Positions 48,664-55,843 of a stretch of DNA of 62,827 nucleotides are shown here, one piece after another. Where the stretch lies: contig PNAT01000133.1 in NCBI GenBank assembly GCA_003169675.1, forward strand, positions 1 through 62,827. The letters are read 5' to 3'. A model generated the notes under the pieces. That model did no database searches and was not told the DNA's origin. It worked only from the letters and a program-made list of their open reading frames with translations. This DNA is from Acidimicrobiaceae bacterium (lineage in GTDB: Bacteria; Actinomycetota; Acidimicrobiia; Acidimicrobiales; RAAP-2). Every line of letters starts with the position of its first letter. Within the stretch, counting starts at the first letter, position 1. A program made the translations under genes and the position numbers.

Positions 48664-49293
48664 ATGGCAGCCGCAGTCTCTAGCGTGACGCAAGCCATGC
48701 CAGTGCATGGAGAGGCCGGACTGGGACGTGAGGTGGTACTCGTTCCGGTCAAGGGCTTCCAGCAGGCCAAACGACGGCTGGGGACCATTCTGACCGATGC
48801 CAGGCGAGTAGCGCTGGTTCGGTCAATGGCTGAATGCGTGGTGGCCGCCAGCGCGCCCTTGCCGGTGGCGGTGGTGTGTGACGATGTCGAAGTGGCTGAG
48901 TGGGCCGCCGAGCTGGGCGCCACGGTGATGTGGGAGCCCGGGCAAGGGCTCAACGGAGCTGTGCGGTCCGGAGTCGATCAGCTCGCGGCAGCCGGGGTCG
49001 AGTGGGTGATCGTGGCCCATGGCGATCTTCCGCGCGCGCGCGGGTTGGGCTCGTTGGCTCCTTTCGAAGGGGTCATCTTGGTGCCCGACCGGCGCGACGA
49101 TGGCACCAACGTCCTTCGCATACCGGTGGCCTGCGACTTTCAGTTCGCCTACGGACCGGGGTCATTCCGCGCCCATCGGGCCGAAGCAACGCGCCTCGGC
49201 CTCCCGGTCCGCGTGCAACGGATTCCGGCCTTGGCCTATGACGTGGACTGGCCGGCCGATGTAGCAGAGCTGCACGCCGCACCGCAGAGGTAA
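48664..49293 (+). CDS. cofC: 2-phospho-L-lactate guanylyltransferase (coenzyme F420 biosynthesis)
   Basis: VVLVPVKGFQQAKRRLGTILTDARRVALVRSMAECVV; VIVAHGDLPRARGL; VPDRRDDGTNVLRIP; FAYGPGSFRAHRAEA. Confidence 0.92.
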   Translation: MAAAVSSVTQAMPVHGEAGLGREVVLVPVKGFQQAKRRLGTILTDARRVALVRSMAECVVAASAPLPVAVVCDDVEVAEWAAELGATVMWEPGQGLNGAVRSGVDQLAAAGVEWVIVAHGDLPRARGLGSLAPFEGVILVPDRRDDGTNVLRIPVACDFQFAYGPGSFRAHRAEATRLGLPVRVQRIPALAYDVDWPADVAELHAAPQR

Positions 49294-49310
49294 GAAGGCT
49301 CTCAATTGCA

Positions 49311-49338
49311 AAGCCGGGGGCCCTCAAGCCCCCGGCTT
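49311..49338. terminator. Bidirectional intrinsic terminator-like hairpin between convergent genes
   Basis: AAGCCGGGGG-ccctcaag-CCCCCGGCTT, perfect 10-bp stem between cofC (+) and the histone-like gene (-). Confidence 0.85.
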
Positions 49339-49364
49339 CACAAGTTCCAGAAGGAACGAACTGC

Positions 49365-49619
49365 TTAGCGCCGACGCGCTGCCTTGCGGGCTGGTGCACG
49401 ACGCACAGCCTTCTTGGCCGGAGCCCGCTTGACCGCCTTCTTGGCTGCCGGGCGCTTCTTGGCCGGAGCCTTCTTGACGGCCTTCTTGGCTGCCGGGCGC
49501 TTCTTCGCCGGAGCCTTCTTGACGGCCTTCTTGGCTGGGGTCCGCTTGACTGCTTTCTTTGCTGGGGCCCGCTTGACGGCCTTTTTGGCCGGAGCCCTTC
49601 TTTTCGCGGCTACTGCCAC
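49365..49619 (-). CDS. Histone H1-like Lys/Ala/Pro-rich repeat protein
   Basis: 84 aa almost wholly AKKAVKRAPAKKAVKRTPAKKAVKKAPAKKRPAAKK repeats; GTG start with AGGGAGG ribosome-binding site. Confidence 0.85.
   Translation of the reverse strand: MAVAAKRRAPAKKAVKRAPAKKAVKRTPAKKAVKKAPAKKRPAAKKAVKKAPAKKRPAAKKAVKRAPAKKAVRRAPARKAARRR
49400..49600. repeat. Degenerate tandem coding repeats (PAKKAVK / RPAAKKAVKKAPAKK units)
   Basis: Recurring ttcttggccggagcc..cttgacggccttcttggc blocks in the sequence. Confidence 0.85.
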
Positions 49620-50073
49620 AGGTGCACCTCCCTAGGAGCATTGTCACTGCATAGAGGTGAAGCCTGCGCCACGCCAATGTTGGACACCCATCGCCGTGCG
49701 CACTGCCGCACCGATTTCATTTGCACTTGCAACGGCTGACGTCCACGCGGTGAGGTCATCGACTTCCCCTCATTGAGCCAACTCGTTGTATTCACCCGAA
49801 TTGCTTCGTTTGATTGATGTGACTGGACGCCTGATGCCGCGCACATTTGACGATCCGACATCTTCGCCGTGCGCGCTGCACATCTTTGTGTCGCAGCACA
49901 TATCAACCCTCCCAAACACTTCAGGTATGCACATTCTTGGTGGTGAACATGCTCAGGTCAAGCATCCTCTTCGAATGCCGCCATTTTCCCCTCAATCGCG
50001 CGCATCAATGCAAGGAGTTCTCAACATGCAATTGATGCTCAAATTGTTCGCCTGCAAGGACAGCTTTGTCTAC

Positions 50074-50094
50074 TTGTCGCACGAATAGCGACAA
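50074..50094. promoter_or_regulatory. Perfect 7-bp inverted repeat upstream of the VirD4-like gene
   Basis: TTGTCGC-acgaata-GCGACAA read directly. Confidence 0.55.
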
Positions 50095-50109
50095 TGTCCT
50101 ATGGAAATC

Positions 50110-50127
50110 TTGACTCATCACAGTCAA
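50110..50127. promoter_or_regulatory. Perfect 6-bp inverted repeat immediately 5' of the VirD4-like start codon
   Basis: TTGACT-catcac-AGTCAA, 10 nt before the ATG at 50138. Confidence 0.45.
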
Positions 50128-50137
50128 CATCGCGCGT

Positions 50138-51556
50138 ATGGAAGAAGCTCTTCATTCTGAAGTGACACCTGTTGATGCACGCGTGAGTTCAACCAGTTCT
50201 TTGCGCCGGGTCCATCGATATGCGGCACATAGCATTTACTTGGGAACGGGAGCCCAAGGTTGGGCCTGGGCCGGCGCGCAACGCTCAGCCCTCGTGCTCG
50301 GACCATCACGCTCAGGAAAGACATCGTCCCTGGTCATACCCAATATTTTGCTGTCCGATGGCCCCGTTGTTTCTACGTCAACCAAGCCGGACGTCATGCA
50401 CGCCACCGCATCATCACGCCGTCGAGAAGGTTGGGCCTTTCTCTACGATCCGAGCGGAGAGATCGATTGCCCCCGAGATGTGGAACGGATCGGGTGGTCC
50501 CCCCTGACCACGGCGACTGACTGGGATGCCGCGGTGCAGACAGCTGACGCAATGGTGGGGGCGAGCCGTCTGAGTGGAGGATCGCTCTCCATCTCCGCCG
50601 GAGAACACCACTGGACCGAACGGTCCGCCGCGTTGCTCTCACCCCTCCTCCATGCGGCCGCAATTGAGGGTCTGCCCTTGCGGACCCTTTTGCGGTGGAT
50701 TGATCGCCATAATGGCTCCACTCCGTTGCAGATCCTCAATTCGACGATTGGGGAGGATGCCACGGCAACCGACCTTTTGGCCGGCATCGTGAGCACGGAC
50801 GCCCGGGAACAGTCTGGTATCTGGTCCACCGCATCGGGCGTGATGGCCGCCTATCGATCAGAGGGCGCCATGGCATCGACCGTGGCGCCTCCGCTCAATC
50901 TCAGCGAATTCTGTCGCGGTCCGAATACCATGTACATCTGCTCGCCGGGACGGCGGCAACAGCAATTCGCACCGCTGGTGGTGGCCTCGATCGGCGATGT
51001 GAGAGACGCTACGTATGTGCGTGAGCGCGAAGGCGAGCCAATGGCGCCCACCCTCTTCGCTCTCGACGAGGTCGCCAATATTGCACCCATTCCGGATCTC
51101 CCGGCCATGGTGAGTGAGGGAGCCGGACAGGGGCTGTTGGTGCTGGCGTGCCTCCAGGATCTCTCCCAGGCCCGCGGCCGGTGGGGATCCGCGGCGAACG
51201 GCTTCCTGTCGCTCTTCGGCACCACAGTGGTGCTGCCCGGGATTGCCGACACCGCCACGCTGCGGGACCTCAGCGCGCTGGGAGGCGATCATGAAGTGGC
51301 GACGACGACGGTGGGACGTTCGGTGGGCGAGCGGGGCCGCATCCGCCCCTCAAGTTCGGTCGGCACCGTGCGTCTACCCCGCTTCCCCGTCGAGACAATC
51401 GCCCACGGCGCGCCCGGTCAGGCTCTCGTCCTGGGTCCGGACAAAGCCATGGGATCGGTCACCCTCACCCCATCGTTTTCCCACCGCCCGTGGCGCGACT
51501 TGCTGCCTCCGGCGCGTGCGCTTCCGACACGTGAAACGATGGGGCGCGGGCGATGA
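50138..51556 (+). CDS. VirD4/TraG/TraM-recognition-type coupling ATPase
   Basis: Walker A LVLGPSRSGKTSSLVIPNIL, VVSTSTKPDVMHAT, Walker B APTLFALDEVANIAPIPDLP, DLSQARGRWG; no obvious N-terminal TM. Confidence 0.87.
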   Translation: MEEALHSEVTPVDARVSSTSSLRRVHRYAAHSIYLGTGAQGWAWAGAQRSALVLGPSRSGKTSSLVIPNILLSDGPVVSTSTKPDVMHATASSRRREGWAFLYDPSGEIDCPRDVERIGWSPLTTATDWDAAVQTADAMVGASRLSGGSLSISAGEHHWTERSAALLSPLLHAAAIEGLPLRTLLRWIDRHNGSTPLQILNSTIGEDATATDLLAGIVSTDAREQSGIWSTASGVMAAYRSEGAMASTVAPPLNLSEFCRGPNTMYICSPGRRQQQFAPLVVASIGDVRDATYVREREGEPMAPTLFALDEVANIAPIPDLPAMVSEGAGQGLLVLACLQDLSQARGRWGSAANGFLSLFGTTVVLPGIADTATLRDLSALGGDHEVATTTVGRSVGERGRIRPSSSVGTVRLPRFPVETIAHGAPGQALVLGPDKAMGSVTLTPSFSHRPWRDLLPPARALPTRETMGRGR

Positions 51557-51557
51557 G

Positions 51558-52961
51558 TCAACGACCGCGGTCGAGTTCCATGGTCTGTGGTCCCCCTCGA
51601 CCCAACAGCGCACGCGCGGCTTCCACCTGGTGGGCCGTGCGCACGTGGTCGACCAAACGACTGGTAGGGAGTGCGGCAAGACCGCTCGGCCCGTTCCCCA
51701 CGCCGAGTGTGTCCGGTGCCCTCGTGACACCCCATCGTTGTCGGTAGTCATCGATCTCCCGGGCGGCGGCACGCCAGACCGCGTGAGCTCGGGGGTCCAC
51801 CGGCCGCGGTCCGAGTGCGCGCAAGAGGTAACTTCCAGGCACGATAAGACGCCGTTGGAGGACATCTTCGGACACGCCAACCTGAATGGCGTTGGTCGGC
51901 GGCACCCACATATCGGACAATTTCTCCAGGTCATCAGCCGACACGCCATCGCGCGCCGCGGTACCGAAGGCGGTGATCACGTCTCGCCGCCGCGCCCCTC
52001 CGTCCGGCGCCACCGAGAGCGCTGCCGCGAAGTGATGTTCGTTGAAGGACTGCGCTTCCACCTTCCGGCCGAGCACTTCTGTCAGTTCGGACCGCTCCAC
52101 CCCGATGGCGCGGGCACGGTACTCCCACCGCGCGGTGAGGTCCTCGTAGCGGGCGCCAACCTCTTTCGGGGTCCGGGTCACGGCCCAGGCAATGTGGTTG
52201 CCCCGGGCCGAATGCGCCCCCATTTCGGCCATGTGCCGGCGGATATCAGCCGAGCGGGAGGAGAATTCGCCCCGCAGGAGGGGGGACACACCACAGACTT
52301 CGGCGCGTTCTTGGGGGGCCTGGGTCCAGTGGACCCCCAGGCGCGCCGTCATGCCCACACGCAAGTGCGCGTCGTACACCGCCGACGCCGCTTCCCGATG
52401 GGCCGAGATCCCTCGTTGATCACAGGCGCTCCAGCGGCCATCGCCACCGTGCACCAAGCTCGCCATCACGACGTGGCTGTGCAGGTGGGGATCAAGGTTG
52501 CGACTCACTCCATGGGTGAACCAACCTGCCACCGCACCACTCGTCGGCACCACCTCGCGCTGGCCCCCCGCACGCCGGGCCGCCGAGATCCCATGGGCCT
52601 CCATGTACGCCACCGCGCCCCTGACAGCATCAGCGTGCGCCGCCATGATGTGGTGCGCCACGTCCTCACCGCCCAGGGCGAACAGCACGCTGGCCGACTT
52701 CGGCGCGCTGAAGGTCAGGTCGTAGCCGAGCACCGTGGCCCGGTTCGATCGCATCTGCCGCCCGGAGTCCGGGTGGCACCCCTCGAGCACGTTGCGGAAC
52801 TGCAGTGGATCCACCGTGCCACCAAGGCCGAGGCCTTGGGCCGCCTGGCCGATCCACACGCCTTGGCCCGGGAGGGGCGCGAGGGGCACCGGAAGCTCCT
52901 GGGCCAGATCGGTGAGGTAATAGTCCGCCCGGTTCGAGGTGAGGCGGTGGATCCCCAGCAT
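51558..52961 (-). CDS. TrwC/MobF-type conjugative relaxase, relaxase domain only
   Basis: Tyr pair (LTSNRADYYLTDLA), YDLTFSAPKSASVLFALG, His triad NLDPHLHSHVVMASL; no helicase Walker A found in the 467 aa. Confidence 0.9.
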   Translation of the reverse strand: MLGIHRLTSNRADYYLTDLAQELPVPLAPLPGQGVWIGQAAQGLGLGGTVDPLQFRNVLEGCHPDSGRQMRSNRATVLGYDLTFSAPKSASVLFALGGEDVAHHIMAAHADAVRGAVAYMEAHGISAARRAGGQREVVPTSGAVAGWFTHGVSRNLDPHLHSHVVMASLVHGGDGRWSACDQRGISAHREAASAVYDAHLRVGMTARLGVHWTQAPQERAEVCGVSPLLRGEFSSRSADIRRHMAEMGAHSARGNHIAWAVTRTPKEVGARYEDLTARWEYRARAIGVERSELTEVLGRKVEAQSFNEHHFAAALSVAPDGGARRRDVITAFGTAARDGVSADDLEKLSDMWVPPTNAIQVGVSEDVLQRRLIVPGSYLLRALGPRPVDPRAHAVWRAAAREIDDYRQRWGVTRAPDTLGVGNGPSGLAALPTSRLVDHVRTAHQVEAARALLGRGGPQTMELDRGR

Positions 52962-52991
52962 CGAACTCCTCGCTCTAAACTGACTTTTATA

Positions 52992-54941
52992 TCATTCTAT
53001 GTCTTTCTGATAAATCTTCAATACCCTTGAGGCGGCCTGCCCAGCCAGGGCGATCAGTTCGAGCGGGCTCACCACATAGGCCTCTGTCCCCAATTGGAGG
53101 AGCAGGCGCTCGAACCACGCCATGCCGGCCACGTCCAGGACCACGTCGGTGACCATGCCATCGGAGGACCGGCGCACGGCACGCACCGGGACCGATTCGG
53201 CCACCCACTGGGCCCCTAGGCCCGCGTGGAGATGGACTTCTTGGGCACCTGGTCCCGGGATGAAGGCGCCCGCGGCGGGGCGGGTCGTCCGGGGAGCGCC
53301 GGCGCTCGGTCCGTCGTGGGGGCGTACCTCATTGATCCGGTCCACCCGGAAACGCCGCATGTCTCCCGCCCGGTGGCAGTAGGCGTCGAGATACCAGTGC
53401 CCATCCATGGTGATGACCTGGGCCGGCTCGACGACCCGGCTGGTCAACTCGTCCCGCGAGGCGGAGAGGTAGGCGATCTCCAGAAGCCGCCCGGCGTCGG
53501 TGGCCTGGCGGACGGCGGCGAGGTGCTGTGGCGTGTCGACATCGACCCCGACCGCCTCGCGGGAGCCCAGGGCGGCGTCGAGCTTGGCCAGGGCACGGCG
53601 CAGGGAATCATCGTCCGAGCCCGGCACGGCCAGGATGAGACGAGCCGATGCGGCAACGGCAAAACCCTCGGCCGCAGTGAGGCGACGAGGGCGGGCGTAG
53701 TCGGCCGGGAGGAAGGCCCGCACCGAAGTTTCAGACACCTCAATCTCCATCAACGTGTCCGGGGTGTAGGGAGGGACGCCGCAGCACGCCGCCAACTCGA
53801 GCTCCGCCACCAGCTCCTGATCACTCATGCCGAATCGCTGCGCCACCTCGGCAATCGGTGCCTCACCGACCTGAGCCAACCAGCCGACCACCGCCAGCAG
53901 TCGACGCAGGCGGTTGCTCGTGGCGCGGCCGGGAACCGCCCTGACGTCCCCGCCGGGCGATTCAGCATCCAGGGGTGAGGGGAAGGGGGTGGCCTCGTGG
54001 CGCGGCACCGTCATGGTGGCCAGCGCCGTGAGCCACGCCTCCAGGTCGGCCCGGAAATCAGGGGGGGCGAGGATCTCGGCGTGATCGAGCAGCCCGAGGA
54101 CCCATGACCGGATGGCCGGGAACGAGGCCACGGCGAGGGTGAGGTCGACGGATCCGTCGTCGTAGCGGCGATCGACCTTGTCGTGGCCCACCTCTTCGGC
54201 CACGCGAGGACCTTCGAGGGCGTCGACGTGGATCCGCATGACGATGTAGTCCTCACCCCCTGGGCGCCATGGTTCGTCGGGCAACGCCGCGCGCACGTCA
54301 ATCCCCTCCGGGACCGCCGCGCGCCCAGTGGCACCCAGCGTCACGTCACCATCGATGCGGTCGACCCGGAACGTGCGTACGGCGGCGCGGTCCAGATCCC
54401 ACGCCACCAGGTACCAGTGGCCGAAACGGAACCAAAGTCCGACGGGCACCACCCGGCGATCGTCGCCCCGGTAGGCAAAGGTGGCCTCGGTGCGCGTGCG
54501 GACCGCCTCGAAGAGGTCGATGAGAGCGCGTGGCGGTACCAGCGTGGCAATCGGTCGCACGTCGTGCAGGCCGGTGGCGCCCAACTTCAGAAGTGCATCG
54601 CGGCCACTAGGATCGCCCAGGTGAACCCCGGCCACGGCCAGGTGAAGCGCAACCTGCTCATCGGATTCGAGGGCCAGATCCGGCAGGTAAAACGCCTCGC
54701 GATCGATCAAGTACCCGTACTGCTCACGCCCGCTCAGCCTCTGCGTCGTGACGGGGATGCCCTCGTCGCGCAGGAGGCGCTTGTCCCGCTCGAAGGCTTG
54801 GCGCCTCGCTCCAAGGTCGACTGGATAGCCCGGCACCTGAAGGGCGATCGCATCGAGGGTCATGGGAACTGTGGTGTCCAGCAGAACCAAGACGAGGTCC
54901 GTCACCCGCTCGAGCCGGTCAAGTCTGGAGGGTCCGATCAT
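52992..54941 (-). CDS. Fused PafB-PafC-like WYL-domain transcriptional regulator
   Basis: Two successive HTH + WYL-like halves: RLDRLERVTDLVLVLLDT..FRFGHWYLVAWDLDRAAVRTFRVDRI and NRLRRLLAVVGWLAQVGEAPIAEVAQRFGMSDQELVAELELAACCGVPPYTPDTLMEIEV..MDGHWYLDAYCHRAGDMRRFRVDRI. Confidence 0.85.
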   Translation of the reverse strand: MIGPSRLDRLERVTDLVLVLLDTTVPMTLDAIALQVPGYPVDLGARRQAFERDKRLLRDEGIPVTTQRLSGREQYGYLIDREAFYLPDLALESDEQVALHLAVAGVHLGDPSGRDALLKLGATGLHDVRPIATLVPPRALIDLFEAVRTRTEATFAYRGDDRRVVPVGLWFRFGHWYLVAWDLDRAAVRTFRVDRIDGDVTLGATGRAAVPEGIDVRAALPDEPWRPGGEDYIVMRIHVDALEGPRVAEEVGHDKVDRRYDDGSVDLTLAVASFPAIRSWVLGLLDHAEILAPPDFRADLEAWLTALATMTVPRHEATPFPSPLDAESPGGDVRAVPGRATSNRLRRLLAVVGWLAQVGEAPIAEVAQRFGMSDQELVAELELAACCGVPPYTPDTLMEIEVSETSVRAFLPADYARPRRLTAAEGFAVAASARLILAVPGSDDDSLRRALAKLDAALGSREAVGVDVDTPQHLAAVRQATDAGRLLEIAYLSASRDELTSRVVEPAQVITMDGHWYLDAYCHRAGDMRRFRVDRINEVRPHDGPSAGAPRTTRPAAGAFIPGPGAQEVHLHAGLGAQWVAESVPVRAVRRSSDGMVTDVVLDVAGMAWFERLLLQLGTEAYVVSPLELIALAGQAASRVLKIYQKDIE

Positions 54942-54970
54942 CGGGCAGAGCCTACGGCGGTACGTCTTTC

Positions 54971-55843
54971 GTGACCGCACTGGCTCTCGCCTTCGGCTGG
55001 CATCTCCACCTGGCGTGGCTTCTGGTCGTGATCGCCGTCGGTACCGCATACATCCGGGCGACGCAGCGCGTGGGGTGGGAGGCCACCCCACGCCAACGCG
55101 TCCTCTTCCTCGTCGCCGTGGCGCTCCTGTGCATTGCCGTCACGTGGCCATTGGGCGATCTGGCGGCCCACTGGTCGCTCGTGGCCCTGGTGCTCCAGCG
55201 TCTGCTGTTACTCCTGGCCGTGCCTCCGCTGGTCGTGGCCGGGACGCCTCGCCCCATCCTTGCCCGGCTCACCCGCCCGGCCGCGGTCGACGTCTTCCTG
55301 CGCATTGCCGTCAAACCGATACCGGCGATCGCTGTGGTCACCGTGGTGGCGGTTGGCACGTTGACGACCGGGGCCGTCAATCTGGCCTCTCATTCCGACC
55401 TGGCCCGGGTGATCTTTCAGCTTCTCGTCCTGGCCTCGGGTGTGGTCCTCTGGGCCCCCGTCCTCACCGAATTGCCGGGTGTCCGAAGGTTGTCCTCCTT
55501 GGGGCGCGGTGGTTACTTGATCGTCCAGTCGATCGTCCCGAGCTTCCTCTCGGTGGTCTGGATCTTCGCCCGGCGATCGCTCTATCCGTCGTACAGCAAG
55601 GCGGGAACCGTGGCCGGGATGTCGCCCGTGCTCGACCAACAGCTGGCCGGATTCCTGGCCAAGTTCAGCACCATTGCCGTGTTGTGGACCGTGGCCTTCA
55701 TCATCATCCGCCGGTCCCCGGAATTTTCCGGCGGCGAGGACGAGGCCGGGCCGCTCCTGTGGTCCGATGTCGAGCGCGAAATCGAGCGCGCTGATCGCCG
55801 CGAGCGCCGCGGTGGGTCGCCCGGACCTCCCAGCGCAGCATGA
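54971..55843 (+). CDS. Cytochrome c oxidase assembly factor, CtaG/caa3 family
   Basis: Multi-TM; FGWHLHLAWLLVVIAVGTAYIRATQRVGW, AHWSLVALVLQRLLLLLAVPPLVVAGTP. Confidence 0.8.
   Translation: MTALALAFGWHLHLAWLLVVIAVGTAYIRATQRVGWEATPRQRVLFLVAVALLCIAVTWPLGDLAAHWSLVALVLQRLLLLLAVPPLVVAGTPRPILARLTRPAAVDVFLRIAVKPIPAIAVVTVVAVGTLTTGAVNLASHSDLARVIFQLLVLASGVVLWAPVLTELPGVRRLSSLGRGGYLIVQSIVPSFLSVVWIFARRSLYPSYSKAGTVAGMSPVLDQQLAGFLAKFSTIAVLWTVAFIIIRRSPEFSGGEDEAGPLLWSDVEREIERADRRERRGGSPGPPSAA

Follow-up and report, generated by a model that had tools for sequence, protein, structure and literature searches.

A relaxase and a VirD4-type coupling ATPase (T4CP1), encoded side by side on the chromosome of an Acidimicrobiaceae bacterium, appear on balance to form the half that processes DNA in a conjugation-type DNA-export system, one that has been domesticated and is inherited vertically in a large clade of Acidimicrobiales. 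The window analysed here spans the whole of contig C67 (62.8 kb), which belongs to a 3.56-Mb MAG (G000). Read from sequence, the case is built on a locus that is conserved and under purifying selection, with intact active sites, on the protein folds, on a co-occurring channel, and on three genomes in which T4CP1 is the sole coupling protein while the channel is kept.

Relaxase and coupling ATPase retain their active sites

We assigned the relaxase by its matches to PF08751 (E 9e-68, 229 bits; cut-off 25) and to the NCBIfam MobF family (196 bits; cut-off 100). The protein carries both motifs expected of MobF relaxases, at least two motif-I tyrosines (DYYL) and an HxHxH triad (HLHSH), as an earlier note made from the letters alone had stated. 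Its AlphaFold model (pLDDT 87) matched TrwC-oriT structures with a TM-score of 0.86 by target length. The SF1 helicase domain found at the C-terminus of MobF proteins gave no match in a domain search of the 467 aa, in agreement with the same note. Some sister-family relaxases are longer (800-1060 aa), and one at the equivalent locus (L302) has a clear AAA_30 helicase; the short window-type relaxase has therefore probably lost its helicase half. In reduced genomes, motif I often holds a single tyrosine of the pair, the second being replaced. Efficient transfer by MobF relaxases is reported to require two tyrosines (PMC12857230), which counts against the DNA-export reading.

T4CP1 matched PF02534 (E 8e-22) and PF12696 (E 6e-19), both over the curated cut-offs, and combines the T4SS-DNA_transf/TraG-D C-terminal domain with Walker A and B motifs, as VirD4/TrwB proteins do. 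The Walker motifs had been noticed earlier as retained, and we found them intact and nearly invariant across 21 orthologues. The AlphaFold model (pLDDT 84) gave Cag-beta and TrwB-deltaN70 as top PDB matches (TM-score about 0.6-0.69). Hydropathy revealed no N-terminal membrane helix of the kind that anchors VirD4/TrwB, again as the first reading had it. A paralogue, T4CP2, has an N-terminal membrane anchor in locus L118.

Table 1. Features of the relaxase-T4CP1 locus in the window and of the channel locus at serS-PhoPR
Feature	Position	Strand	Description	Evidence
cofC	48664..49293	+	left syntenic anchor	in 18/20 loci read
KA gene	49365..49619	-	Lys/Ala/Pro-rich, histone-H1-like (KAPAKK repeats)	transcribed divergently from T4CP1 in nearly all orthologous loci
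Conserved noncoding site	49950..49965	-	TGCTCAGGTCAAGCAT; promoter-like towards KA gene	-35-like (TTGACC)
T4CP1	50138..51556	+	soluble VirD4/TrwB-type coupling ATPase, 472 aa	PF02534/PF12696; TrwB + Cag-beta fold; no TM helix
Walker A of T4CP1	50300..50323	+	GPSRSGKT	nearly invariant among 21 orthologues
Walker B of T4CP1	51062..51079	+	LDEVAN	conserved among 21 orthologues, invariant at L, D, E, A and N
Relaxase	51558..52961	-	short MobF/TrwC-type HUH, 467 aa, without helicase domain	PF08751; NCBIfam MobF; TrwC fold
Metal-binding triad of relaxase	52473..52487	-	HLHSH	HxHxH invariant in alignments and in 73/73 further loci
Catalytic Tyr pair of relaxase	52917..52922	-	Y14 Y15 (motif I, DYYL)	Y14 invariant in alignments
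pafBC	52992..55091	-	fused WYL/PafC regulators, right syntenic anchor	adjoins relaxase in loci read and in sister families
c8			DUF6112, VirB2-like pilin	two TM; weak VirB2 match
c2			VirB6-like	about six TM; weak TrbL/VirB6 match
c1			VirB3/VirB4-N-like (VirB4 N-half)	two N-terminal TM; EccE-like match (one relative, separate cluster)
c0			VirB4-type ATPase	
c4			T4CP2, membrane-anchored coupling protein	

The pair is a core chromosomal locus

The T4CP1 and relaxase genes are convergent, tail to tail, and 1 bp apart. Within the family, the relaxase was present in 96 of 100 genomes and T4CP1 in 99 of 100, each in all 21 genera; among the high-quality genomes, each protein was found in 68 of 69. 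We read 20 loci (11-18 kb), and the order mannosidase-cyclase-gpsA-cofC-(KA-rich gene)-T4CP1 followed by the convergent relaxase and pafBC recurred with minor losses. A wider set joined 7 checks to 80 loci taken from named public MAGs. The relaxase was found in 73 of these loci, and in all 73 it was convergent with T4CP1 and kept HxHxH and a motif-I tyrosine; of the remaining 14, five end within 1.2 kb. In reduced genomes the 3' ends of the two genes often overlap (40-140 bp). The dN/dS values over close pairs were 0.21-0.43 for the relaxase and 0.11-0.26 for T4CP1, and both genes are under purifying selection.

The near flanks, read from 43 to 60 kb, hold housekeeping genes (mannosidase, cyclase, gpsA and cofC; pafBC, ctaG, carboxylase, moaC and tldD), as the earlier note had said of both flanks. 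No tRNA or att-like repeats flank the pair, and the marks of an integrative element (integrase, att sites, sporadic distribution) were not found there. That note had left two alternatives standing, a remnant of a mobilisable element and a conserved chromosomal system. The second is favoured and the first rejected because synteny that covers 21 genera also reaches sister families, and because of the conserved catalytic residues and the purifying selection. Neither sign that it had named against a conserved module was seen: in place of a sporadic recent island we found a near-universal, syntenic distribution, and no catalytic residue was lost in the 73 loci holding both genes. These results indicate that the pair forms a core chromosomal locus passed on vertically.

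The gap upstream of T4CP1 contains a conserved 16-mer (Table 1), and its 10-mer GGTCAAGCAT, with one mismatch allowed, occurred in 18 of 21 upstream regions compared with at most 11 in shuffles. As a candidate oriT of the intergenic region (49.6-50.1 kb), this 16-mer was considered and dropped, since its reverse strand reads as a promoter towards the KA gene, with TTGACC and, about 17 bp further along, a hexamer richer in AT. In the window, the site lies about 330 bp upstream of the KA gene start. In relatives, the KA-rich gene was mostly seen as antisense or K/A-rich ORFs within the gap. No oriT was identified, no clearly distinct motif was found between the relaxase and pafBC, and Rfam gave no match within 49300-53100.

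Beyond the family, strong T4CP1 matches (at least 300 bits) were present in 50 of 148 genomes of the order, covering 18 families besides the window's own, and no match exceeded 310 bits in 297 genomes of the phylum outside the order. Several sister families still have T4CP1 after cofC and the relaxase beside pafBC, even when the two genes are separated. In the relaxase tree, the syntenic copies did not form a single clean clade; some long copies grouped with mobile relaxases, and the relaxases of family f14 sat on a long branch with unsure placement. Acidimicrobium ferrooxidans, whose genome is a single replicon of 2,158,157 bp (PMC3035218), has one TrwC relaxase (YY, HLHTH), one T4CP1 and the cluster PhoPR-c8-c1-c0-c4.

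Channel genes occupy a second fixed locus

The earlier note had described a pair with no transfer channel. This holds for the window but not for the genome, in which a VirB2/VirB6/VirB4/T4CP cluster lies on two other contigs (C41 and C196). Across the family, the T4SS whose search that note had proposed is near-universal at a second fixed locus with the order serS-PhoP-PhoR-c8-c2-c1-c0-c4-P450-ROK. Profile searches of the family genomes detected c0 in 93 of 100 and c2 in 91 of 100. Channel genes were also present in genomes of 1.4-2.3 Mb, and in the four that we read they had an equivalent address. The VirB2 and VirB6 assignments combine weak Pfam matches (E 0.003) with topology and gene order. 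With VirB2 and VirB6 homologues that are weak by Pfam, a VirB4 homologue, a fixed chromosomal locus and a clade-wide distribution, the cluster has the features of a domesticated T4SS.

The cluster of the window's own MAG is divided between two contigs: C41 has c8, c2, c1 and c0 up to its position 302, and C196 has the remainder of c0 together with c4. This genome's channel may be off, because an insertion splits its VirB4 gene (c0). Across three genera, c0 is interrupted just 3' of Walker B (VVDEAWAIL) in five or six genomes, including this MAG (junctions at L160 ~6474, G000:C41, and L113 ~3955, G000:C196; also L162-L170). At the G062 junction there is a large serine recombinase (Resolvase and Recombinase domains), similar ORFs lie nearby in G050 and G037, and the right junctions of G000, G004 and G044 have in common GAGAC(A/G)TGGGTTAGCTGAAT. 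The core T4SS gene c0 seems to serve as an attachment site for mobile elements. In genus g1 and family f14, an additional 2.4-3.4 kb of DNA separates c1 from c0 (L160 7400-10770; L360 9351-11790; L361 4622-7028). The window's MAG also contains a separate ICE-like unit (L114, G000:C164:1-20000) with its own T4SS genes, a T4CP and a relaxase frame of more than 1100 aa.

Pair and channel co-occur across the order

A VirB4 match (E at most 1e-26) was found in 49 of the 50 order genomes with strong T4CP1 and in 16 of the 98 without, counts that are uncorrected for phylogeny. In G074, G065 and G083 (96% complete; reduced), T4CP1 is the only TraG-D-type coupling protein and the channel genes are kept. 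In family f14 (G112, G193), the relaxase gene directly adjoins c8-c2. Evidence against the export reading comes from G026, a 4-contig MAG in which the pair is intact and the T4SS cluster has been deleted between PhoR and P450, leaving a 33-codon c8 remnant (L332, G026:C1:815001-834000). Co-loss of pair and channel in G022 was rejected because its contig stops within c8. Distance correlations between relaxase and channel did not exceed those obtained with pafBC, a housekeeping gene; specific coevolution was therefore rejected, and the correlations point to co-inheritance.

Alternatively, the pair could have a role independent of the channel, such as restarting replication, handling incoming plasmid or phage DNA, or repairing DNA, with the T4SS co-occurring only by descent. 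We regard this as unlikely. It would accommodate the pair retained in G026 after channel loss, the unlinked position of the two loci in most genomes, the missing membrane anchor of T4CP1 and the unspecific partial correlations. However, VirD4-type ATPases that accompany relaxases are known substrate couplers, and near-complete co-occurrence across the order, T4CP1 as sole coupler beside retained channel genes in three genomes, and the adjoining f14 genes all argue for a connection. Domesticated DNA export, with the pair probably loading chromosomal DNA into the channel encoded at the second locus, remains the preferred reading.

Discussion

From the data above we infer nicking by the relaxase, coupling to the serS-PhoPR channel, DNA transport and cell-to-cell transfer. 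In the proposed mechanism, the relaxase would nick one chromosomal strand at a transfer origin, and the 5' end would stay bound via Tyr14. T4CP1 would dock this relaxase-ssDNA complex and pump it into a type IV channel of the minimal monoderm kind, encoded at serS-PhoPR, feeding VirB4/VirB6 at the membrane either alone or with T4CP2, and another helicase would do the work lost from the relaxase. Chromosomal DNA would then be donated to neighbouring cells, which is a simpler expectation than mere release. The bolder proposal, that this clade has conjugation as a core function, with relaxase, coupling protein and channel at two fixed loci donating its own chromosome instead of a mobile element, we put at slightly under an even chance; the system would then be retained even in genomes of 1.4-2 Mb.

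It is rather improbable that the chromosomal T4SS mainly moves protein effectors, with the relaxase as either a vestigial passenger or one of the proteins secreted. A genome with two coupling proteins could handle two substrate classes, and the T4SS of Patescibacteria is ubiquitous and mostly lacks a relaxase (PMC12102498). Against this, the relaxase active site is kept in all orthologues read, including those from 1.4-2 Mb genomes, and some reduced genomes lose T4CP2 but not T4CP1. DNA import, as by archaeal Ced or Helicobacter ComB, is very improbable: Ced, the closest domesticated analogue, does import DNA (PMC9905601), but neither Ced nor Ted has a relaxase (PMC9905601), and a nicking relaxase with a coupling ATPase is a donor-side device. 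That the pair is left over from a mobilisable or conjugative element that once integrated is hardly credible, for although its proteins belong to families typical of plasmids and ICEs, long mobile TrwC relaxases abound in the order and the window's genome has the ICE-like unit on C164, the address is identical in 20 family loci and in sister families, att repeats or a tRNA were not found at the pair, the viral contigs searched held no relative, dN/dS indicates purifying selection, and the long mobile relaxases are mostly separate from the syntenic relaxase in the tree.

The domesticated export system that we favour shares the HUH relaxase fold and active site, and the coupling ATPase fold, with R388 TrwC/TrwB (also F TraI/TraD). 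Compared with R388 TrwC, the window's family lacks the helicase half and often has one tyrosine in reduced genomes; compared with TrwB, T4CP1 lacks the membrane anchor. The pair is also chromosomal rather than plasmid-borne, with convergent genes, and is vertically inherited. The gonococcal genetic island combines a chromosomal relaxase with a T4SS that exports the cell's own ssDNA. Its T4SS is F-type and lies on a horizontally acquired island of one species group. Ced and Ted of Sulfolobales and Thermoproteales are domesticated archaeal T4SSs without a relaxase, with DNA import shown for Ced, and share chromosomal VirB2-, VirB4- and VirB6-like parts (PMC9905601); the Acidimicrobiales system, in contrast, is bacterial and conserves a relaxase and VirD4-type couplers. 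The Patescibacteria T4SS is likewise clade-wide, chromosomal and monoderm, but the relaxase is absent from most (PMC12102498), whereas in Acidimicrobiales relaxase and T4CP are near-universal. Actinobacterial T4SS-type ICEs are mobile elements with an integrase, a TrwC relaxase, a VirD4 T4CP and VirB4 homologues (PMC3218068); the Acidimicrobiales set is similar, but the pair has no integrase and the system sits at two fixed core loci. The component families are thus known, and in the literature searched we found no description of this locus, or of a bacterial clade that inherits relaxase, T4CP and T4SS vertically as core genes.

Conjugation machinery is usually regarded as a property of plasmids and ICEs. 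Acidimicrobium ferrooxidans, a cultured type strain with a single-copy relaxase, T4CP1 and the channel cluster, makes the proposal directly testable. Here the genes for the relaxase, the coupling protein and the channel have the character of core genes, and a mostly uncultured lineage of soil, peat and freshwater could therefore have the donation of chromosomal DNA as a permanent trait.
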